64,000 bases of DNA from Cupriavidus sp. D39. GTDB taxonomy: Bacteria > Pseudomonadota > Gammaproteobacteria > Burkholderiales > Burkholderiaceae. The stretch spans positions 124,001 through 188,000 of the forward strand of contig NZ_JAPNLE010000009.1 in assembly GCF_026627925.1 (NCBI RefSeq). The letters run 5' to 3'. A model generated the notes under the pieces. It searched no databases and was not told the DNA's origin. It worked only from the letters and a program-made list of their open reading frames with translations. Both the position numbers and the translations under genes were made by a program. Below are positions 23,643-35,010 of this stretch, in pieces (within the stretch, counting starts at the first letter, position 1; each line of letters begins with the position of its first letter).

Positions 23643-25208
23643 TCAGTGCGCGGCCGCAGCGGCGGCAGCATTGCCGCCCTTGGCCGGCTTGGTGAACCAG
23701 ATCAGCGGGATGATCACGATGAAGATCACGCCCGAGATCCAGAAGATATCGTTCAAGCCGAGCATGGTCGCTTGCGTGGTGAGGCTGCGCTCGAAGAACG
23801 CCATCGCCTGGTCATGGCTGAAGCCGGCCGTGGCCTGCAAGGCTTCCAGCGAGTGCACGAAGACCGGGTTGTGCTGGCTGGCCTGCTCCGCGAGTTGCGC
23901 GTGATGCAGGATGTTGCGGTCGTTCCAGGCTGTACTGGCCAGCGACGTGCCTACGGCGCCGGTGAACACGCGAGCGAAGTTCGACAGGCCCGCGGCGGCA
24001 GGGATCTTGTCGGGCGACAGACCGGACAGGAGGATGGCGGTCAACGGCACGAAGAACAGCGCGGTCGGGATGCCTTGCAACAGCGTGGGCAGCACCAGCG
24101 TCCAGGTGTCGACGGTGGTGGTGTAGCCCGCGCGCATGAAGAACACCGCGGCGAAGCCGGCAAAGGCCATGGTCGCCAGCACCCGCGCATCGGAGCGCGG
24201 CATGATCTTGCCCAGCACCGGCGCCAGGATCACGGCGAAGATGCCCAGCGGTGCGGTCACCAGCCCGGCGTTCACGGCCGGGTAGCCGAGGTATTGCTGC
24301 ATCCATTGCGGCAACAGGACCAGGTTAGCGAAGAACACGCCGTAAGCCACCGAGATCGCCACGGTCCCGCCCAGGAAGTTGCGGCCGGCAAACAGCTTGA
24401 GGTCGACGATCGGATGTTCCTCGGTCAGCTCCCAGATCACGAAGAAGATGAAGCTGATCAGGGCCACCACGCCGAGGCCGACGATCAGCGGCGAATGGAA
24501 CCAGTCGAGATCCTTGCCCTTGTCCAGCATGATCTGCAGCGAAGCCACCCAGGTGATGAGCGACGCCAGCCCAACCTTGTCGATCGGCAGCGCGCGGGTA
24601 GGTGTTTCACGCGAACGGTAGATGATCCAGGTGACGGCCGCGGCGAACAGGCCCACGGGAATGTTGATATAGAAGATCCACGACCAGGAGTAGCGATCGG
24701 TCATCCAGCCGCCCAGCGCCGGGCCGGCAATCGGGCCAACGGTGGCCGTCATGGCCCACAGCGCCAGCGCGGTGGAGCTGCGTTGCTTGGGATACGAGCC
24801 AAGCAGGATCGCCTGGGAGAGCGGAATCAAGGGGCCGGCCACGGCGCCTTGCAGTACGCGCGCGGCCAACAGGATGGGCAGGGTGGGCGCGATGCCGCAC
24901 AGCCACGACGACAGCACGAACAGCAGGATGGCGCCGACGAACAAGCGGACCTGGCCGATGCGCTGGGTCAGCCAGCCCGTGAGCGGGATCGATACCGCGT
25001 TGGCTGCGGCGAACAGCGTGATGACCCACGTGCCTTCGTCCACCGAAACACCGAGGTTGCCGGAGATGGTGGGAATGGCCACGTTGGCGATCGACGAGTC
25101 GAGCACGTTCATGAAGGTGGCAAGCGCTACCGCGAAGGTGGCGAGCACCAGCTTGGCGCCGGAGAGCGGCGGGGGCTGGAGCTGATCGGCTGTGTTGGCG
25201 TTTTCCAT
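23643..25208 (-). CDS. emrB: EmrB/QacA-type (DHA2) multidrug efflux transporter
   Basis: The 521-residue protein has about 14 hydrophobic segments. It carries the DHA2 motifs LDSSIANVAIPTISGNL in the first helix, GWLTQRIGQ between helices 2 and 3, and LGGWMTDRYSWSWIFYINIP. It uses the proton gradient to export drugs through the EmrA adaptor and the outer-membrane factor encoded upstream. It sits 110 bases after emrA and has its own copy of the ATCTGA/TCAGAT palindrome, so it may be transcribed both from the operon promoter and from an internal one. Confidence 0.94.
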   Translation of the reverse strand: MENANTADQLQPPPLSGAKLVLATFAVALATFMNVLDSSIANVAIPTISGNLGVSVDEGTWVITLFAAANAVSIPLTGWLTQRIGQVRLFVGAILLFVLSSWLCGIAPTLPILLAARVLQGAVAGPLIPLSQAILLGSYPKQRSSTALALWAMTATVGPIAGPALGGWMTDRYSWSWIFYINIPVGLFAAAVTWIIYRSRETPTRALPIDKVGLASLITWVASLQIMLDKGKDLDWFHSPLIVGLGVVALISFIFFVIWELTEEHPIVDLKLFAGRNFLGGTVAISVAYGVFFANLVLLPQWMQQYLGYPAVNAGLVTAPLGIFAVILAPVLGKIMPRSDARVLATMAFAGFAAVFFMRAGYTTTVDTWTLVLPTLLQGIPTALFFVPLTAILLSGLSPDKIPAAAGLSNFARVFTGAVGTSLASTAWNDRNILHHAQLAEQASQHNPVFVHSLEALQATAGFSHDQAMAFFERSLTTQATMLGLNDIFWISGVIFIVIIPLIWFTKPAKGGNAAAAAAAH

Positions 25209-25273
25209 GGTGAACTCGGCGGGTCTCTTACTTGTGTCGGCCGGCGCTTGCCGGATTTAATTGCTATATAAAA

Positions 25274-25289
25274 ATCTGAGTTATCAGAT
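25274..25289. promoter_or_regulatory. MarR-type operator, copy 1 (upstream of emrB)
   Basis: ATCTGAGTTATCAGAT has 6-base inverted arms around a 4-base spacer. It is followed by AAATGG and preceded by an AT-rich TATATAAAA that could be a minus-strand -10 region. The same arms recur at 28179 and 28690. Confidence 0.65.
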
Positions 25290-25318
25290 AAATGGCGCAG
25301 AAAAATCTCGGCAAGGCA

Positions 25319-26596
25319 TTACAGGGCTGCAGCCTTTGCCGGCTTTTCCACCGTCTTCGCGGCAACCGCCGTGGCTTGCGCGCCCGACGTGCTGGCGGTG
25401 CTGGAGGTGCCGGCGGTGCTGTTGAGCGCGATGATGCGTGCGATCTCGGCGTCTGCCTGTTCGCCGTACGCACGGTAGACATTGGTGCTGTACGTGGTCT
25501 TCTTGACCGCGCCGAGTTGCGCGCCGCTGCGGTCCTTGGTGTCGACGTCGACCTGCATCGACAAGCCGATCTGCAGCGGGTGGGCACGGAGCTCCGCCGG
25601 ATCGAGCTCGATGCGGGCGGGCAGGCGTTGCACCACCTTGATCCAGTTGCCGGTGGCGTTCTGCGCGGGCAGGGCCGAGAACGCGCTGCCGGTGCCGGCC
25701 GAGAAGCCCACCACGCGGCCGTGGTAGCGCACGCTGCTGCCGTACACGTCCGCGCGCAGCTCAACCGGCTGGCCGATGCGCATATGCTGGAGCTGCACTT
25801 CCTTGAAGTTCGCGTCCACCCAGACGCCGTCCAGCGGGACGATGGCCATCATCGGGGCGCCCGGGGCCACGCGCTGGCCGACCTGCACCGAGCGGCGTGC
25901 CACATAGCCCGTGACCGGCGCAGGCAGCGTGTTGCGGGCAAGGGCGAGGTGCGCATCGCGCAGCTTGGCCGCTGCGGCCTGCACGGCGGGGTGCTCGGCG
26001 ACCGTGGTCTGGTCGGTCATGGTGCGGTTGGACGCAAGTTGCTGGCGGGCGGCTTCGAGCGCGGCCTCGGCGGTCTTGACCGCGTCGCGGGCATGGGCCA
26101 CGTCCTCCGCGGAGACGGCGCCGGTTTCCGTCACCTGGCTGCGGCGCTGGAAGTCGTCGCGGGCCTTGGCCAGGTCGGCCTGGCGCTGCTGGATCGCGGC
26201 CTGGTAGACGTTGTTGTTGACGTAGAGGGCGCTCACCTGGCGCACCGTTTGCGCGAGCTGGGCCTGGGCGTTGCCCAGTGCGACCTGCGCATCGGCCGGG
26301 TCGAGGTTGACCACGGCTTCGCCGGCCTTGACGATCTGCGTGTCGTCGGCGTTGACGCTGATCACGGTGCCGCTGACCTGCGGGGTGAGTTGCACGAGGT
26401 TGCCATTGACATAGGCGTCGTCGGTGTCTTCGTGATGCACGGCGTAGGTGAAGTAGTAGGCCGCGTAGCCGCCGGCGGCAATCAGGGAGACCATGCCCAG
26501 CGCGGCGAGCAAGCGTTTGCGGGTGGCCATCTTGCCGGCGGGGGCGTTGCTGCTGTTGTCGCCGGCGGTGGTTTCGGTCTGGGTAGCTTCGGTCAT
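25319..26596 (-). CDS. emrA: EmrA-type membrane fusion protein (HlyD family)
   Basis: ATG 26596 (MTEATQTETT) follows GAGGTG and is preferred over a GTG three codons upstream. One N-terminal membrane segment (LLAALGMVSLIAAGGYAAYYFT) precedes HHEDTDDAYVNGNLVQLTPQ, the EmrA lipoyl-domain signature. A coiled-coil hairpin and the C-terminal beta-barrel follow (RRSVQVGQRVAPGAPMMAIV). It connects the EmrB pump to the outer-membrane factor across the periplasm. It lies 54 bases downstream of the outer-membrane factor gene. Confidence 0.94.
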   Translation of the reverse strand: MTEATQTETTAGDNSSNAPAGKMATRKRLLAALGMVSLIAAGGYAAYYFTYAVHHEDTDDAYVNGNLVQLTPQVSGTVISVNADDTQIVKAGEAVVNLDPADAQVALGNAQAQLAQTVRQVSALYVNNNVYQAAIQQRQADLAKARDDFQRRSQVTETGAVSAEDVAHARDAVKTAEAALEAARQQLASNRTMTDQTTVAEHPAVQAAAAKLRDAHLALARNTLPAPVTGYVARRSVQVGQRVAPGAPMMAIVPLDGVWVDANFKEVQLQHMRIGQPVELRADVYGSSVRYHGRVVGFSAGTGSAFSALPAQNATGNWIKVVQRLPARIELDPAELRAHPLQIGLSMQVDVDTKDRSGAQLGAVKKTTYSTNVYRAYGEQADAEIARIIALNSTAGTSSTASTSGAQATAVAAKTVEKPAKAAAL

Positions 26597-26608
26597 TTTG
26601 AACACCTC

Positions 26609-26644
26609 GGTAGCGGTATCGGTAGCGGAGTTGGTAGCGGAGTT
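26609..26644. repeat. 12-bp tandem repeat, three units, leader of emrA
   Basis: GGTAGCGGTATC, GGTAGCGGAGTT and GGTAGCGGAGTT are contiguous. The array fills most of the gap between the outer-membrane factor stop and the emrA ribosome site. It is one of seven short-period arrays in intergenic spacers of this window. Confidence 0.85.
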
Positions 26645-26650
26645 GAGCGG

Positions 26651-28176
26651 TTATTGCGGCTGTACGGGAGCGCCCGGCGCGGCGGGGCTAAGGACCGGCG
26701 ACTGCATGGCCACTGCCGCAGGCGCGGCGCTGGACGTATCCGTGTAGCCGCCGCCAAGCGACGCCGCCAGCGCGATCTGGCGGTCGCGGCGCGTCATGCG
26801 CAGTTGGGCGACTGCCTCGGTGCGGGCCAGCGCGTTGGTTTCCGCGTTCAGCACGGTGAGCTGGGTCGTCAGGCCCTGGCGATACTGCGCAAGGGCCAGG
26901 TCGCGGGCACGGCGGCTGTTTTGCTCGGCGCGCAATGCGTCGACCAGTTGCGCATCGATCGTGCGGATCTGGGCCAGTTGCGTGGCGACGTCGGTCAGGG
27001 CGCCGATCAGCGTCTGGTTGTAGTTTGCCACCGCCAGGTCGAATTCCGCGTAGCGGCCTCGAGTTGCGCGCGCAGCGCGCCGGCATCGAAGATCGGCAGG
27101 TGGATCGCCGGGCCAGCGTTGGCGGTGCGGCTGGCGGCGGTGAGAAAGCGGCCAAAGCCGAAGGCATCCAGGCCAATCGCGGCGCTCAGGTTGATGTCGG
27201 GGTAGAAGCCGGCCTTCGCCACCTTGATGTCGTGGGTGCTGGCGTCCACGCGCCACCGTGCGGCGACGATGTCGGGGCGGCGCGAGACCAGGTCGGCCGG
27301 GAGGTTGTCTGGCAGGCGCACTTCGTCGCCGGGGCTCAGCGTGGGGCGCGCGACGGCCAGCCCGCGGTCCGGGCCGCGGCCGAGCAGGGCGCCCAACTGG
27401 TAGCGAGTGTTGAGGACGGCGCCGTTAAGCGCCGTGACCGCCGCGTTGCTGGCGTCGAGGTTGGCGTCGGCGGTGCGTTGTTCCACTTCGGTGTCCAGGC
27501 CGGAGGCGGCGCGGGCGTGGGTGATACGGGCCAGCGCGGTGCGCTGCCTGACTTCGTCCTGGGCGATGTCGAGCAGGGCGTACAGGCGGGCCAGTTCGTT
27601 GTAGGCGCGGGCCACGGCCGAGCTGACGGACAGGCGGACCTGTTCCGATTCCGCCTCGGCGGCACGGCGTGCCGAAATCGAGGAGGCCAGGGCTTCGCGG
27701 TTCTTGCCCCACAGGTCGAGTTCATAGCTGGCGCTGATCACGCCACGGTTTTCGGTTTGCCAGGAGCCGGCGATGGGCGGGGGCGCGAGGGCGGTGCCCG
27801 AGTATTGCTGGCGGGTCAGCGTGTAACCGGCGTCCACGCGCGGCAAGGTGTTGGCATTGGCGCCTTCGCTGTAGGCCGCGGCGGCGGCCAGGCGTGCCTT
27901 GGCCATGTCGATCGACGGACTGCCTTCGAGCGCTTCTGCAATCAGCGCACGCAACTGCGCGTCGCCGAACTGGGCGGCCCAGTCGGCCGCGGGCCAGTGG
28001 CCTTGCTCGGCGGGCAGGCTGGCGGTGGTTTCCAGCGCGGTGGGTGCGGTGACGTGCTTGTCGCTGGAGATGCCCGCGTAGCTGGCGCAACCGGCCAGCC
28101 AGGCGCTGAGCAGCAGGGGCAGGACCTTGGTGGAGCGCAGGGCGCGGCCGGTCATTCGAGAAGTCTGCGTTTTCAT
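26651..28176 (-). CDS. NodT-family outer-membrane efflux lipoprotein, one apparent frameshift
   Basis: The signal peptide ends in LLLSAWLAGCASYAG, a lipobox, and two OEP domains follow. Conserved pieces include ALIAEALEGSPSIDMAKARL, SYELDLWGKNR and RRPDIVAARWRVDASTHDIKVAKAGFYPDI. The frame breaks near 27057 within QLE/GRYAEFDLAV. One extra C in the plus-strand CC at 27057-27058 restores AQLEGRYAEFDLAVANYNQTL and a 508-residue protein ending at 26651. It forms the outer-membrane channel for EmrAB. It is first in the efflux operon and has a MarR-type palindrome immediately before its start. Confidence 0.9.
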
Positions 28177-28178
28177 TT

Positions 28179-28192
28179 TCTGATTTGTCAGA
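28179..28192. promoter_or_regulatory. MarR-type operator, copy 2 (upstream of the efflux operon)
   Basis: TCTGATTTGTCAGA is a 5-base inverted repeat with a 4-base spacer. It is followed by TAAATGG as in copy 1. It lies three bases before the outer-membrane factor start codon, where binding would block expression. Confidence 0.65.
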
Positions 28193-28215
28193 TAAATGGT
28201 TAAAAAGACGCGCGC

Positions 28216-28653
28216 TCAGGCGGCCGAAAATTTGTCGAGCAGGCGCAACAATTCGTCGAACTCGCTTTTGCTGAAATCCTTGAGGCGCGCATTCAGCACC
28301 TCGGGGGCAATCTCCGGAATCTGGTTGGCAACGCTGTGGCCCTTGGCGGTGAGCTCCAGGTTCACCACGCGGCGGTCATCCACGCTGCGCGAGCGGGTCA
28401 GCAGGCCCTTGCGCTCCAGCTTGTCGAGGATGCGGGTCATCAGGCCGGTGTCGATCGCCAGCAGCTTGCTCAGCTCGAACGGGGTGGTGGCCGTGCCGAG
28501 CGACAGCGACAGCAGGATGCCCATCTGCTGGGCGGTGATATCGAGTTCCTTCAGGGCGGCGTCCATCTCCATCAGCACAAGATTGCGGGCCCTGTTGAGG
28601 TAGAACCCGACGCTCTGCGTCAGGTTATAGGTCTCTTTCGTGTAGTGCTTCAT
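28216..28653 (-). CDS. MarR-family regulator of the Emr efflux operon
   Basis: The 145-residue winged-helix protein has DITAQQMGILLSLSLG, FELSKLLAIDTGLMTRILDKLERKGLL and the wing RSRSVDDRRVVNLELTAKG. It is encoded 40 bases upstream of the operon in the same direction. Matching palindromes lie before it, before the outer-membrane factor and before emrB. It most likely represses all three and is released by a small hydrophobic or phenolic ligand, as known for EmrR/MprA. Confidence 0.92.
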   Translation of the reverse strand: MKHYTKETYNLTQSVGFYLNRARNLVLMEMDAALKELDITAQQMGILLSLSLGTATTPFELSKLLAIDTGLMTRILDKLERKGLLTRSRSVDDRRVVNLELTAKGHSVANQIPEIAPEVLNARLKDFSKSEFDELLRLLDKFSAA

Positions 28654-29067: not shown

Positions 29068-29427
29068 CTACTTCGATTTCGCGCCGTCCGTGTACGGGTC
29101 GGCCTTGCCGGCCTTGGCGCCATCGGTATAGGGATCTGCCTTGCCTGCCTTGGCCCCGTCCGTATAGGGGTCGGTCTTGCCGACCTTGGCTCCGTCCGTG
29201 TAGGGATCGGGCTTGCCCTGCGTGGCATTCAGGTCCATTTGCGTGGATTTCTTCGCGCCATCCGTGTACGGGTCGAACTTGCCGGACTTGGCGCCATCCG
29301 TATAAGGATCGGCCTTGCCGGCCTTGGCACCGTCGGTGTATGGGTCGAACTTCTTTTGCTGGCCATAACTCAAGCCTGAAGCCGTTGCGGCGGCGACAAG
29401 TAACGTCAACGTGAGTACTCTGCGCAT
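29068..29427 (-). CDS. Exported protein made of seven DPYTDGAK repeats
   Basis: ATG 29427 follows GGAGCAAGAG and begins a Sec signal peptide (RRVLTLTLLVAAATASGLSYG), cleaved near YGQ. The mature region of about 95 residues is almost entirely a tandem repeat of 12 residues, FDPYTDGAKAGKA, in seven copies. A single longer spacer, KSTQMDLNATQ, lies between the third and fourth. The repeats are acidic/Tyr/Gly followed by Lys pairs and have no Cys or His, so metal binding through thiols is unlikely. A divergent gene at 30080 encodes a second protein of the same design. I know no function; a surface, periplasmic buffer or stress role is inference only. Confidence 0.82.
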   Translation of the reverse strand: MRRVLTLTLLVAAATASGLSYGQQKKFDPYTDGAKAGKADPYTDGAKSGKFDPYTDGAKKSTQMDLNATQGKPDPYTDGAKVGKTDPYTDGAKAGKADPYTDGAKAGKADPYTDGAKSK

Positions 29428-29847
29428 CTCTTGCTCCGGTGGTAAGGAGGTGGTCGCCTGTGGCTCAGCCAGGGAACGCACGGGCACAGGCTGGCTGGAT
29501 TAGCTGGCATCTGCGCCACGCCAGACAAACTGGGGCGGTAACCTCGGTGGGGCCAGCGGGGCACGCAAGCGAAGGCAGGCCAGGGCGCATGAATACTCGC
29601 CCCACGCCTGCTTATGCCGCGTCCCGCACAGTTCATCCTAGGAGTGAATACGCAGAGGCCGTAGTAAAACGTTGTAAATCCTTGTTGCGTTTTTTCCTTT
29701 CAGCCGCGTCCTTTCCCGGTGCGTGAAAAATGTGCAACGACCGGTGCTTTTTCCGGTCTTTCCGACTTTTTCTTCGAGCGTCTCTCCCTAGTTGATATGC
29801 GCTTTACGCCATATTATGGGCATCTGACATCCGGCCTGAAAAACTCA

Positions 29848-29876
29848 TTGACTATCTATCTACCAGTAGATAATAT
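29848..29876 (+). promoter_or_regulatory. Strong sigma70-like promoter with a TetR palindrome between the -35 and -10
   Basis: TTGACT (29848-29853), 17 bases, TAATAT (29871-29876). The palindrome TATCTACCAGTAGATA occupies 29857-29872, exactly between the boxes, a classic repression geometry. About 75 bases downstream, GGGGAGTCCCC followed by seven T could end a short transcript. The rest of the 650-base spacer 29428-30079 is AT-richer and shows no gene. Confidence 0.7.
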
Positions 29877-29966
29877 TCAGCGCATGGAAGCCGCTGCTCC
29901 GCCCCAGCAAGGAAAGCTGAAGCAGGAAAGAGGATCCAACGCAGCACCCGGGGAGTCCCCGTTTTT

Positions 29967-29996
29967 TTGGCCAGCTTATCTATCTACTGGTAGATA
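29967..29996 (+). promoter_or_regulatory. Promoter and TetR operator directly upstream of the second YTDG-repeat gene
   Basis: TATCTACTGGTAGATA (29981-29996) is a perfect palindrome apart from its central TG. It overlaps a TTGGCC, 18 bases, TAGATA promoter whose layout is identical to that of the tetR promoter (TTGGCT, 18 bases, TAGATA at 30824-30853). Confidence 0.65.
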
Positions 29997-30079
29997 ACAG
30001 CCAGTCAAAGCAAGGGTTCCAAAGCGTACTGAATCGATTCCGCCCGAAGCGCGGATCCTCAATGTGAATGGAGAACATC

Positions 30080-30553
30080 ATGACCTCGAACCTCTTCGCC
30101 AAGACCCTCATCACCGCGGCCGCCCTTGCTGCCGCCTTCGTGGCGGGTACCGCCCAGGCTTCGGGCCCGAAGGACAGCACGTTCTCGGGTGACAAGTACG
30201 GCTACGTGTTCCGCACCACCACACCCGACGCTTATACCGATGGCGCCCGCACCGGCAAGTTCGACCCGTACGCCGACGATTTGCGCGTTGGCAAGGCCGA
30301 CCCGTACACGGACGGTGCCCGCATCGTGGCCGGCCTGGACCGTACCGGGGTGTCGGCTAGCCCGGCCCGCAGCGTTGACGCTTATACCGATGGCGCGCGC
30401 ACCGGCAAGTTCGACCCGTTCACGGACGGTGCCCGCACCGTGGCCGGCCTGGACCGCAGCGGGGTGTCCGCTAGCCCGGCCCGCAGCGTTGACGCCTACA
30501 CCGATGGCGCGCGTGGCAAGTTCGACGTGTTCACCGATGGCGCCAATGCGTGA
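30080..30553 (+). CDS. Exported protein with seven D-[APV]-[YF]-T-D-G-A repeats
   Basis: ATG 30080 follows TGGAGAAC and is preferred to 30068. A signal peptide ends at GTAQA/SGPKD. The 157-residue product carries seven repeat units: DAYTDGARTGK, DPYADDLRVGK, DPYTDGAR, DAYTDGARTGK, DPFTDGAR, DAYTDGARGK and DVFTDGAN. Two copies of a long spacer, AGLDRTGVSASPARSV (Thr or Ser variant), separate three groups, and that longer unit is itself duplicated at DNA level. It is the partner in style of the divergent gene at 29068-29427 and lies downstream of a TetR-type palindrome. The function is not known to me. Confidence 0.85.
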   Translation: MTSNLFAKTLITAAALAAAFVAGTAQASGPKDSTFSGDKYGYVFRTTTPDAYTDGARTGKFDPYADDLRVGKADPYTDGARIVAGLDRTGVSASPARSVDAYTDGARTGKFDPFTDGARTVAGLDRSGVSASPARSVDAYTDGARGKFDVFTDGANA

Positions 30554-30642
30554 GCGCTGCCAGGGCCTCCCGGCGATCGCCACCTGGATGCCTGATAGCG
30601 GTTGGGAAACAGAGTGAGAGTGAAATAGAGTGGGAGTGCATC

Positions 30643-30744
30643 ATGAATTTACGGGACAGTTTCCTGATCCTGGCTGGCTGGGTGGTTCTGTGCCTTGCTA
30701 GTGGCTCTGCGGTCACCGTGGTGGCGCAAGTGCTTCCGGCGTGA
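30643..30744 (+). CDS. Possible small membrane protein, 33 residues
   Basis: MNLRDSFLILAGWVVLCLAS opens a single hydrophobic segment, followed by a short tail ending VAQVLPA. GGGAG lies upstream at a slightly long distance. It sits between the repeat-protein gene and tetR, perhaps in the same transcript. Only the hydrophobic pattern supports it. Confidence 0.4.
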   Translation: MNLRDSFLILAGWVVLCLASGSAVTVVAQVLPA

Positions 30745-30763
30745 GCCGACATAGGGCCTTTTA

Positions 30764-30796
30764 AGCGCAACTAAGGCGCAACTTAGGCCCAACTAA
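30764..30796. repeat. 11-bp tandem repeat, three units, upstream of tetR
   Basis: AGCGCAACTAA, GGCGCAACTTA and GGCCCAACTAA are contiguous. They precede the tetR promoter by 27 bases. Confidence 0.8.
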
Positions 30797-30823
30797 GCCG
30801 GCTTGTTGCGACTGCACATGAAA

Positions 30824-30853
30824 TTGGCTTGAGGATCTATCGATAGATAGATA
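30824..30853 (+). promoter_or_regulatory. tetR promoter with overlapping palindrome
   Basis: ATCTATCGATAGAT (30835-30848) is a perfect palindrome between TTGGCT and TAGATA spaced by 18 bases. Initiation about seven bases after the -10 would fall almost at the ATG (30864). No ribosome site is visible, so the tetR mRNA may be leaderless. Confidence 0.62.
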
Positions 30854-30863
30854 AGATCGCGCT

Positions 30864-31430
30864 ATGAAAACGCAATCCGTACGCGAACAACTGCTCGAAC
30901 ACACGCTGGTGCTGATCCGCCGGCGCGGTTTCAATGGTTTCAGCTACCGCGACCTGGCCGAGCTGGTCGGCGTGAAGACGTCGAGCATCCACTATTACTT
31001 CCCCGCCAAGGACGACCTGGTGCTGGAGGCAGTGAAGGAATACAGCGCCCGTATCTCCGAACGGCTGCGCAGCGTGGACGCCTCGCTTGCCCCTGCCGTG
31101 CAGGCCGGGGGTTACCTTAACTTCCTGCGTACCGCGGCCTGCGGCGACCAGATCTGCCTCGCGGGCATGTTGTCCACCGAGACGCTGTGCCTGCCGGAAT
31201 CGGTCCACGCCGAGCTCAAGGCGTTCTACCGCATGAACGAGAACTGGCTGATGGGGTTGATCGAGCGTGCGCAGAAGGAGTACGGCAAGGTCTATCCGGT
31301 GACGCCACGCGCGCTGGCGCAGGTGATCTATGGCGCGCTGCAGAACGGCTTGATCGTAGCGCGGCTGTTCGGGGCGCCCGAGCGGCTGGAGTCCGCCGCG
31401 GACCTGCTGATGGCTTCGGTATCCGAGTAA
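30864..31430 (+). CDS. TetR-family regulator of the YTDG-repeat genes
   Basis: The 188-residue protein has the TetR helix-turn-helix FSYRDLAELVGVKTSSIHYYFPAK at residues 25-50 and an all-helical ligand domain with DQICLAGMLSTETLCLP, a Cys-containing stretch seen in NemR/YkgD-like electrophile or oxidant sensors. Related TATCTA/TAGATA palindromes lie before it and, twice, before the repeat-protein gene, so autorepression and control of that gene are likely. The ligand is unknown; the Cys residues make a reactive electrophile plausible. Confidence 0.9.
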   Translation: MKTQSVREQLLEHTLVLIRRRGFNGFSYRDLAELVGVKTSSIHYYFPAKDDLVLEAVKEYSARISERLRSVDASLAPAVQAGGYLNFLRTAACGDQICLAGMLSTETLCLPESVHAELKAFYRMNENWLMGLIERAQKEYGKVYPVTPRALAQVIYGALQNGLIVARLFGAPERLESAADLLMASVSE

Positions 31431-31733: not shown

Positions 31734-33439
31734 TCAGCCTGCTGCGTTCTCCACTATCTTCCACTGCTCGTCGACCTCCTGCACGCGGCCGTCCTGCACC
31801 AGCTTGAGCAGGTGCGCCAGCAGCGAGCGCTTTGCCACCGGGAGCATGCGTTCCGGCACGTCGTCGTAGACGCGCAGGAGCAAGGCATCGATGCCGGTTT
31901 CGCCAAGCTCGCGCAGCGCGTTGAGCACCTTTGCCTCGCGCTGCATGCGATGGCGGATCAGGGTGCGGATGGCATCGGCTGGCCGGGGCATCAGGAAGCC
32001 GTGGCCGGGCGCGAGCCATTCCAGGTCCTCGTCCTGCAGCGCGGCCAGCGAGGCCAGGTATGCGTACATGTCGCCGTCGGGTGGATTGATGACGACGGTG
32101 GAACCCTGCATCACGTGGTCGCCGGTGAACAAGGTCTTTTCTTCCTCAAGCAGGAAGCAAAGATGATTGGATGCATGTCCCGGCGTGTGAACGACGCGCA
32201 GCGTGCAGCCTTCGCCCAGCGCCAGGCGCTCGCCGTGCGCCAGGATGCGCTCGGGCTGGAAGGTCTGGTCCTGGCGTGGCGTTGGCGGCGCGGGGCGGCC
32301 CAGCACCGGCGCGCCGGTGGCGGCCTTGAGCCTTGGCGTTGCCGGCGAGTGGTCGATATGGGTGTGGGTGGCCAGGATCCAGCGGATCGGGCCGGGTGCG
32401 GCCACCAGCACGGCGGCCACATGGGCTTCGTCGTCGGGGCCTGGATCGATCACGGCCCATTCGTTGCGCGCGGGGTCCCCCACAAAGTACGTGTTGGTGC
32501 CGGGCCCGGTCATCACGCTGCCATTGCCGGCGGTGACGCGCCAGACGCGCTCGGACAGCCGCACCGCGGCGCCGGTCGCCAGCTCATAGCGCGCATGGCC
32601 CTGGCCTTGCGGGTCGATGCGCTCGATCTCGGCATAGGCAGGCTCAGAGGGCAGCACGGGCCGCAGGCCGCCACCGCCCTGGGCCAGGCGCGGCATGATG
32701 CGCGCAATGTCGCGCAGCTGCGCCGCATGGTCAAAGCAGGCCTGGGCGGTGTCGAAGCGGGCAATCGAGGCTAGCGTGCGCCGCGTCACTGCCACCAGCT
32801 TCAGGCCGCGCGCCGGATCGATGGCATCGCTCGGGCGTACCCAGAGATGCTCCACGGCTTCGTCGCCATCGTGCGTGGCGGACTGGCCGGCGGGCGCCAC
32901 GGCCACGAAAAAGCGTGTGTCGAAGCGCTTGGGCAAGCCGGGTGGCGTCAGCCAGTGGCTGTGATACGCCAGGCGGTCCACCGCCAGGCGCACACCAAGC
33001 CGCTCGCAGAGCTGCGCCATGCCCGGGCCGCCGCGCCGCGCGGATTGCCGCAGCCATGCCTGCTGCGTGGCATCCAGCGTGTCCAGCGCGATCAGCTTGC
33101 CGCTGGCATCGCTCGCAAACAGCAGGCCGGCTTCCTCGAAACACTCGCGCACGGCTGCCAGGTAGAAATCCAGGCCGCCGTCAGGCAGCTTGAGACGCTT
33201 GCTGGCCGCGGCATCGTCCAGGCCGGCGCAGGCATCGTGCAGGGTTCTGTCTTGAGGGTCGAGCGTGCCGCCGGGAAAGACGAAGGCGCCGCTGCTGCGG
33301 TCGTCGTTGCGCTCGGGGCGGCGCACCAGGAGCACTTCCATGCCGGCCGCGCCATCGCGCACGACCAGGATGCTTGCGGCTTGGCGCAGCGAGGGGATCG
33401 TAAAGGAGGGGTGCTTCCGCTCTGTTCTTGTTCGTGCAT
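31734..33439 (-). CDS. Fusion of NUDIX hydrolase and metallo-beta-lactamase domains
   Basis: The N-terminal half is a NUDIX domain with GGTLDPQD and AAVRECFEEAGLLF, the REx2EExG core. The C-terminal half is a metallo-beta-lactamase hydrolase with HTHIDHS, HTPGHASNH and FTGDHVMQGSTVV, followed by a winged-helix-like tail as in LACTB2-type proteins. The open frame extends to an ATG at 33491 without a ribosome site. MHEQEQ at 33439 has AGGAA upstream and joins the frame if one base is added at the run 33408-33411, giving 568 residues. I prefer that start but it is not proven. Substrates are unknown. Confidence 0.88.
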
Positions 33440-33540
33440 GTGGGGCGGTTCCTGATGGACTGGCTGGGATCAGGCGACAGTGTAGCGGCATCGCACGGTT
33501 ATGCCACCGAGGGATAGCGAGACGGTAAGCCTCCCGCGGG

Positions 33541-33579: not shown

Positions 33580-35010
33580 TCACTTCGTGGACGTGTTGTT
33601 CATCGCCGCGAATTGTTGCGTGAGGTAGCTGGCGGTGGAGTTCAGCCGGTTGATCATCAGGTCAAGCTGCTGGAACTGCGCCCGATAGCGCGACATCGTG
33701 GCGTCGATGCCCGCGGAGGTGCGGGTATAGGCGCTGTCGAGGTCCTTCAGGTTGGTGTTGATGCCTTCGGTGGCCGTCGTCAGCGCGCCCTTCGTGGCGC
33801 TGAACGACTTCGCCATTTCCGCCAGCTGATTGCCATAGCCGGACTTGCCGTCGACCCCGCTGAACAGCTGCGCCACGCCGGTCCGGTTGCTGGCGAGCGC
33901 CTTGTTCAGCTTGGCGGTGTCGAGCCCCATGGAGCCGTCGGCCTTGAACGAGATCCCGATCTGGGTCAGGTTGACCAGGCTGGAGTCGCTGGCGCCGGTT
34001 TGCGGCGTGTTGAACACGGAGCGCAACTGGTTCTGGATCGTGCGCAGGGTCGCGTCGCCCAGCAGCGGAGACTGGGTGCCCTTGTTGGACTTGTCGAAGG
34101 CGGACAGCTTCGCGGCGGTGCTCTGCAGCGTGTTGTAGGCCGTGACAAAGCCCTGCACGGCGCCAGCCATCGTCGCGGTGTCGGTGACGGCGGTCACCGT
34201 GCTGTCGCCCTTGCTCAGCAGGTTCAGCGTCAGGCCCGGCGCGGCGCCTTGCACCGAGTTGGTCGGGCTGCTCACGTCGATGCCGTTGATGGTCAGCTTG
34301 GCGTCGAGGGCCTCGATGTTCTGCTTCATCGCCTTGGTGCCGGCCGGGTCATACGCGAGCAAGCCGGCAATGGTGCTGGGGTCGCCGGCGCCGTTGCTTT
34401 CCACCGAGATGCGCATGCTGGACTTGGCGCCCGTGGCGTTGGACGTCAGCACCATGCGGTACGGCGTGCTGCCGCCATCGTTGACGATGCTGGCGGTCAC
34501 GCCCGAATTGGACGCGTTGATCGCATCGCGGATGCCGGTCAGCGTGTTGTTGGTGCCATTGATGTTGATCGAGGCGGGCGTGCCGGTGCCGGGCGTGAAG
34601 ACGGCGCCCTCGGTGGTCCCGAACTCGATCTTGATCTTGGCGCTGCCCAGCAACTGGCCCGTACTGTCGGTGATGCCGTTGGACACCAGCGTCTGCGATT
34701 GCGCCAGTTGCGTCACCTTGACCGCATAGCTGCCCGCCATCGCGGACTTGTCGGCCACGACGCCCAGCACGTTGGTGCTGCTGGACGTGGTGGTGGTGCT
34801 GTTGTACAGGCTCGCCGTGCCAAGCGCGCTGGCGGCATTCTGGAACGAAGCCAGCGCCCCTTGCAGCAGACCATAAGCGGAGAGCTTGGTGGTGTGGACG
34901 GTGGCCTTCTTGGTCAGGGCGGTGAGCTTGGTCTCTTCCGCCTTTTGCAGATTGTCCAGCAAGGTGCTCAGTTCCAGCTTGGACCCGACACCTATCGAGG
35001 AAATAGCCAT
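33580..35010 (-). CDS. fliD: Flagellar hook-associated protein 2 (filament cap)
   Basis: The 476-residue product begins AISSIGVGSKLELSTLLDNLQ, the FliD N-domain, and ends with the coiled-coil FQQLDLMINRLNSTASYLTQQF. The middle has variable beta-rich domains with many Ser, Thr and Gly. FliD caps the flagellar filament and folds flagellin; it is exported by the flagellar type III system without a cleaved signal. No other flagellar gene lies in the window (no fliC, fliS or fliT), so this copy is separated from the usual cluster. GGGAT is the likely ribosome site. Confidence 0.95.
   Translation of the reverse strand: MAISSIGVGSKLELSTLLDNLQKAEETKLTALTKKATVHTTKLSAYGLLQGALASFQNAASALGTASLYNSTTTTSSSTNVLGVVADKSAMAGSYAVKVTQLAQSQTLVSNGITDSTGQLLGSAKIKIEFGTTEGAVFTPGTGTPASININGTNNTLTGIRDAINASNSGVTASIVNDGGSTPYRMVLTSNATGAKSSMRISVESNGAGDPSTIAGLLAYDPAGTKAMKQNIEALDAKLTINGIDVSSPTNSVQGAAPGLTLNLLSKGDSTVTAVTDTATMAGAVQGFVTAYNTLQSTAAKLSAFDKSNKGTQSPLLGDATLRTIQNQLRSVFNTPQTGASDSSLVNLTQIGISFKADGSMGLDTAKLNKALASNRTGVAQLFSGVDGKSGYGNQLAEMAKSFSATKGALTTATEGINTNLKDLDSAYTRTSAGIDATMSRYRAQFQQLDLMINRLNSTASYLTQQFAAMNNTSTK

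Follow-up and report, generated by a model that had tools for sequence, protein, structure and literature searches.

What are two small, apparently exported repeat proteins, encoded back to back beside a TetR-family regulator, and what controls them? The question arises in a 64,000-nucleotide stretch of Cupriavidus sp. D39 (the window; contig NZ_JAPNLE010000009.1, positions 124,001 to 188,000), in which gene A (29068..29427, minus strand; 119 amino acids) and gene B (30080..30553, plus strand; 157 amino acids) diverge, and which a sequence-only reading had described as a regulated, unassigned system. By sequence, both are new members of the known CopQ/MmsQ/PrsQ family of Cupriavidus. We further consider it rather probable that gene B belongs to a stress-inducible CopQ/MmsQ module in which a cysteine-sensing TetR repressor would control a disordered exported stress protein together with a membrane microprotein. 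The repeat family is already known; the control module of TetR, operators, leader and microprotein seems to be new, and the last three are additions to the earlier account.

In each protein a signal-like N-terminus is followed by seven D-x-[YF]-x-D-[GD] units, confirming that the two repeat proteins are real. Gene A has seven exact copies of DPYTDGA, and the regular 12-residue spacing reported for it holds except for one longer interval; the period in the DNA is 36 nucleotides (Tandem Repeats Finder, TRF). Gene B has one degenerate unit among its seven (DPYADDL), a 114-nucleotide DNA repeat (TRF), a GDKYGY motif and VAGLDRxGVSASPARS spacers, so that the description of both proteins as nothing but repeats is right about the seven units each and wrong about what else gene B contains. 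Translation likely starts at ATG 29427 in gene A, which has a Shine-Dalgarno-like GGAG, rather than at GTG 29487, and at ATG 30080 in gene B rather than at 30068.

Because the repeats match the published CopQ family, which is itself functionally open, the label "unassigned" has to be dropped. That family is described from Cupriavidus as metal induced and as carrying an RDXXTDG motif (PMC2864759), and database name labels agree: the window proteins have the repeated D-x-x-T-D-G motif with spacers, and gene B resembles a protein named CopQ (P0009; E value, 4e-49). A database search with gene B gave 447 relatives at E <= 0.001; among the matches listed (the best 120 of the 447 were inspected), most of those with an organism in the label are from Cupriavidus, and most are labelled hypothetical protein or copper resistance protein CopQ. 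Gene B also has matches at 23 places in its own genome, counted as about 20 loci and including gene A (E value, 7e-15). At 1e-5, 38 of 200 genomes of the taxonomic family, representing 2 of 25 genera, had matches, as did 1 of 13 genera in a second sample. This agrees with a restriction to Cupriavidus and Ralstonia, the latter being inferred and families outside barely sampled. No Pfam or NCBIfam family scored above its cut-off for gene A or gene B, and a nucleotide search of plasmid records found matches in four Cupriavidus records, all of them short, partial and below 80% coverage.

CopQ, MmsQ, MmtQ and PrsQ likewise have a signal-like N-terminus, D-x-x-T-D-G repeats with spacers and about 20 paralogs per genome (PMC2864759, PMC7563307, PMC7380067), and are confined to Cupriavidus and one other genus in our family sample; Cupriavidus metallidurans CH34 has 21 poorly characterised homologs (PMC7563307). 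The difference lies in control. PrsQ2, an AgrR target (PMC7380067), is controlled by two-component AgrR, whereas a TetR, an operator, a leader and a microprotein are undescribed in the passages of these papers drawn on here. Our search of the open-access literature found no description of a TetR beside CopQ-type genes.

The regulator of the window (30864..31430, plus strand; 188 amino acids) scored 39.8 bits against Pfam TetR_N (cut-off, 24). Assignment as the AcuR acrylate regulator (NCBIfam NF051457) was rejected at 32.7 bits against a curated cut-off of 247. Of 60 Cupriavidus genomes, 59 have a match to it at E <= 1e-20, most of them two, and when the best match of each of 30 genomes was inspected (L032-L061), a copQ-like open reading frame (ORF) lay upstream on the same strand, 129 to 367 bp away, at all 30 loci. 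Tandem copQ-tetR module pairs were seen in many genomes (L039-L061). The ligand domain had been called Cys rich; Cys93, Cys98 and Cys109 are indeed there, and of these only Cys98 is invariant among 64 TetRs. NemR of Escherichia coli is an electrophile- and hypochlorite-responsive TetR regulator; it is 21% identical to the window TetR, a comparison that does not imply correspondence of Cys98 with its sensing Cys.

Five places in the D39 genome carry the palindrome ATCTAYYRRTAGAT, three in the window and two before the nearest paralog, against zero for the control. Counted genome-wide, whether at a module or not, it has 113 sites in 45 of 60 genomes versus 2 for the reversed pattern. Putative operator 1 (ATCTATCTACCAGTAGAT, 29854..29871, with the strict 14-mer at 29858-29871) fills the spacer of the predicted promoter P1; operator 2 (ATCTACTGGTAGAT, 29982..29995) lies between a terminator-like element and gene B; operator 3 (ATCTATCGATAGAT, 30835..30848) lies in the spacer of a possible tetR promoter, TTGAGG-17 nt-TAAGAT (30829..30857, plus strand), which matches at 8 of 12 positions, is below the scan threshold and was found by eye. 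With the gene order at the 30 loci, these operators give strong sequence support to the earlier suggestion of a system regulated with the TetR, and the regulatory wiring of the module appears well supported. The two palindromes before gene B are spaced 123 to 126 bp apart at the six window-clade loci having both, exactly 124 at both D39 loci (29858/29982 in the window; 8384/8508 in L070) and 131 in another module, in genome G061; such spacing is compatible with looping.

Between gene B and tetR lies a hydrophobic 33-amino-acid microprotein (MNLRDSFLILAGWVVLCLASGSAVTVVAQVLPA; 30643..30744, plus strand), probably with one membrane span. Its pattern recurs at 29 of the same 30 TetR loci and its profile in 30 of 30 Cupriavidus genomes, and three sequences gave nonsynonymous divergence (dN) of 0.058-0.089 against synonymous divergence (dS) of 0.43-0.87. 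By coordinates, and using a chosen subset of copQ-like matches, 44 of the 50 stronger microprotein matches in genomes G000-G018 lay downstream of one of them, no more than 500 bp away (50 of 62 listed rows were used; the 12 left out had E values of 3.1e-5 to 0.0074). Among nine loci that were fetched, one counted as positive had no copQ-like ORF (L146) and one counted as negative had one (L151), so the corrected association is again 44 of 50; four others (L147-L150) had no copQ-like ORF beside the microprotein. At L152 (1094-1316, minus strand, genome G016), a microprotein and a TetR are directly preceded by two palindromes, the first strict and the other near, and no copQ-like ORF was found within 800 bp. 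By eye, the microprotein also follows mmsQ and mmsQ1 of CH34, the latter beside neither of the two TetR places of that record.

P1 (TTGACT-17 nt-TAATAT, 29848..29876, plus strand) scored 9 of 12 in the promoter scan. Transcription predicted to start near 29884 would yield a leader of about 85 nucleotides (29883..29968, plus strand) ending in a conserved terminator-like stem (29949-29961) and T-run (29962-29968). As 1.4 comparable stems are expected by chance in the stretch, we argue for the terminator from conservation: P1, the terminator-like element and operator 2 are common to seven aligned close sequences, operator 2 of L064 departing from the strict pattern. Furthermore, 40 further modules (L053 left out) keep the order -35, operator-like spacer, -10, C[AG]TGG, leader, T-run and operator, with the gene usually starting 86-98 nt after the start of operator 2. 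Most of these 40 also have an inverted repeat, CTATC....CGATAG, ahead of the -35; visual inspection showed none in the window clade. We rejected a leader peptide starting at ATG 29884, since its frame and stop vary among relatives, and Rfam gave no match in 29400-30900.

The leader might instead be the end product, an independent small RNA made from P1, with gene B expressed from a different promoter close to operator 2. This is possible but doubtful. The T-run ends each of the 50 distinct leaders collected, the T-run being part of the selection (25 rows without one were left out, namely 24 ohr-linked TetR loci and one contig end), and the near-constant distance from operator 2 to most gene starts would suit such a promoter. 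Against it, the promoter scan lists none at operator 2 in the window, and matches to the leader lie near TetR genes: a structure model, R1, built from 28 of the 50 leaders (41 of general type), gave 32 matches in 16 of 40 genomes, two in each, all within 2 kb upstream of a TetR by coordinates (113 candidates per genome were scored, and some searched sequences also built the model). Support for the leader structure is mixed: 87.7% of aligned cells pair, compared with at most 58% after sliding, and only 1 of 500 shuffles attained the score for pairing or covariation, but there are weaknesses, given below.

What the TetR senses is suggested by its relatives elsewhere. In other genera of the family, where the search was made with a Paraburkholderia TetR (the window TetR was the query in plasmid records), TetRs of the same group precede ohr, a peroxide-defence gene, at 29 of 30 loci, with a like promoter-operator. 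In the window the operator likewise sits in the spacer of a TTGACw promoter; ohr is not directly downstream, and at 1e-8 no ohr match was found in the 30 Cupriavidus TetR loci, window included, with flanks up to 1.5 kb. In Burkholderia cenocepacia, the TetR-ohr-lipase operon (BCAS0084-0086) is induced by H2O2 and hypochlorite (PMC2830190). Gene order, together with B. pyrrocinia and Paraburkholderia records, points to an orthologous TetR there, with Cys98 and a similar spacer-operator promoter; its target is ohr and a hydrolase (PMC2830190), whereas that in Cupriavidus is a copQ-like gene and the microprotein, with a leader and a second operator.

The CH34 counterparts bring in metals. There, downstream of a TetR-linked copQ-like gene at 1.57 Mb, come the TetR, an exonuclease-III-family gene and two NosL genes, neighbours by which we identify the copQ-like gene as mmsQ (mmsQ Rmet_4908, xthA3 Rmet_4910 and nosL Rmet_4912 are listed in PMC2864759). 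At 2.35 Mb lies a copy in which visual comparison shows a single residue difference, as also stated for mmsQ1 (PMC2864759), and interpolated locus numbers alone make mmtQ the probable identity of the gene at 0.77 Mb. Visual inspection of the CH34 genes shows a T-run terminator flanked by operator-like sites. The TetR might thus sense metal ions (Hg, Cd, Pb, Cu/Ag) directly, the ohr link reflecting ancestry only, with no peroxide role. Published CopQ-family genes are metal induced, mmtQ responding to Cd, Hg and Pb, details not shown (PMC2864759), and the Cupriavidus neighbour is copQ-like and not ohr. We nevertheless regard direct metal sensing without a peroxide role as unlikely: promoter-operator layout, recognition region and Cys98 are common to the ohr-linked group, whose matching operon answers H2O2 and NaOCl (PMC2830190).

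For the Cys-sensing repressor module, we infer operator binding, repression, inducer, read-through and periplasmic function as follows. The TetR would bind the ATCTAYYRRTAGAT palindromes as a repressor, blocking RNA polymerase from operator 1 in the P1 spacer, probably acting from operator 2 behind the leader terminator as a roadblock or second control point, and regulating its own gene from operator 3. Oxidation or metal capture at Cys98 would release it, candidate inducers being organic peroxide, H2O2, hypochlorite or soft metals (Hg, Cd, Pb). Once derepressed, P1 would be transcribed into the leader RNA, with read-through extending transcription to gene B and the microprotein. Exported, disordered gene B product would help the envelope survive metal or oxidant stress, like PrsQ1 and PrsQ2: in the silver mutant NA4S, resistance was lost in prsQ1 and prsQ2 deletion derivatives (PMC7380067, citing Mijnendonckx 2019). 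The microprotein perhaps acts with it from the inner membrane. More tentatively, and with the balance of our judgement against it, an ohr-type thiol-switch TetR may have been rewired in Cupriavidus into a genus-wide envelope redox-stress module, with the disordered periplasmic gene B product and the conserved, unannotated microprotein a functional pair and the leader RNA a second control layer.

Several observations count against this picture. The exact palindrome is absent from 15 of 60 genomes; the P1 spacer element in the 40 modules and the sites at CH34 mmtQ are variants missing the strict 14-mer; and the promoter pattern is missing at 8 of 32 ohr-linked loci. The nearest D39 paralog has no microprotein, nor, as judged by eye, do mmtQ and L053. 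Covariation in the leader is weak (250 of 500 shuffles matched its 3 pairs with changes on both sides), the leader of the window itself folds no better than shuffles (z, 0.21), and model R1 has no match in the D39 genome, window-clade leaders having diverged. Cys98 is a single conserved Cys, and the mmsQ and mmtQ inducers given in the cited passages of PMC2864759 are metals, partly as "data not shown," with no peroxide mentioned. Finally, the TetR of the nearest D39 paralog is split over two frames (L070 7014-7573, which is C9:1865013-1865572 of the genome). Since both palindromes of that paralog remain, the window TetR may control both modules.

The sequence-only reading had proposed that the repeats bind divalent cations or the cell surface. 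A calcium- or cation-binding or surface-binding array is superficially suggested by Asp/Gly-rich units that resemble an acidic loop; we judge it improbable, the charges being balanced. Gene B has 17 positive and 19 negative charges, and gene A has 17 and 15. The mature part of gene B (cleavage assumed after residue 27) has no Cys, His or Met; that of gene A (cleavage assumed after residue 22) has no Cys or His and one Met. By composition, then, the earlier view that these are not conventional Cys/His/Met metal scavengers stands. The structure prediction it had called for, made for gene B with AF2 (AlphaFold2), came out unfolded at low confidence (mean predicted local distance difference test score, 50.6) apart from a hydrophobic N-terminal helix at residues 3-23. 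Computed without an ion, this low-confidence model fits an unfolded periplasmic protein and is no proof of one. A PDB profile search gave no credible relative: 7pvp (SAKe6BC; E value, 2.9e-4) had no stretch passing alone, and 5ej3 (E value, 0.29) was likewise not credible. Cation or surface binding is thus left without support.

The long opposite-strand ORFs overlapping both genes might suggest that their repeats arose by chance or that GC-rich DNA produced the two ORFs as artefacts. This can practically be dismissed because gene A shows codon-level purifying selection, refuting the idea for that gene already, and gene B has its 447 relatives. Gene A has orthologs in five relatives (L064, L065, L066, L068 and L069), whose differences fall mostly at third codon positions, as expected of a protein gene under selection: dN is 0.004-0.14 against dS of 0.08-1.08 (15 pairs, six sequences), and 0.011 against 0.420 between the window and L064. 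Purifying selection across the five relatives and the window is strong. Of the close loci, the five long enough to tell all have gene A beside gene B in divergent orientation (the L067 sequence stops too soon); 11 modules from other Cupriavidus, each with at least 3.5 kb upstream, yielded no gene A. Gene A can thus be described as a divergent paralog that close relatives share, and the TetR control proposed here is for gene B, its microprotein and tetR itself.

Directly beside gene A lies an EmrAB-like efflux set (23643-28653, minus strand) of major facilitator superfamily transporter, membrane fusion protein, outer-membrane factor and MarR regulator ORFs, of which MarR was profiled and the rest assigned by eye; 28411-28625 within the MarR gene is ~82% identical to C. 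metallidurans DNA. Beyond tetR, by eye, are a minus-strand ORF resembling a NUDIX plus metallo-beta-lactamase-fold hydrolase (31734-33491) and a FliD-like flagellar ORF (33580-35010).

Taken together, these comparisons suggest that one regulator-operator pair was retained across genera while its neighbour switched from ohr to a copQ-like gene. CopQ-type genes rank among the metal-induced genes of a model metal-resistant bacterium, and PrsQ1 and PrsQ2 are reported to be necessary for evolved silver resistance (PMC7380067). With a dedicated repressor that has a defined palindrome and a likely class of inducer, and with a conserved small membrane partner, this family would gain testable handles, and the module could explain the metal response of genes unlinked to any metal locus.
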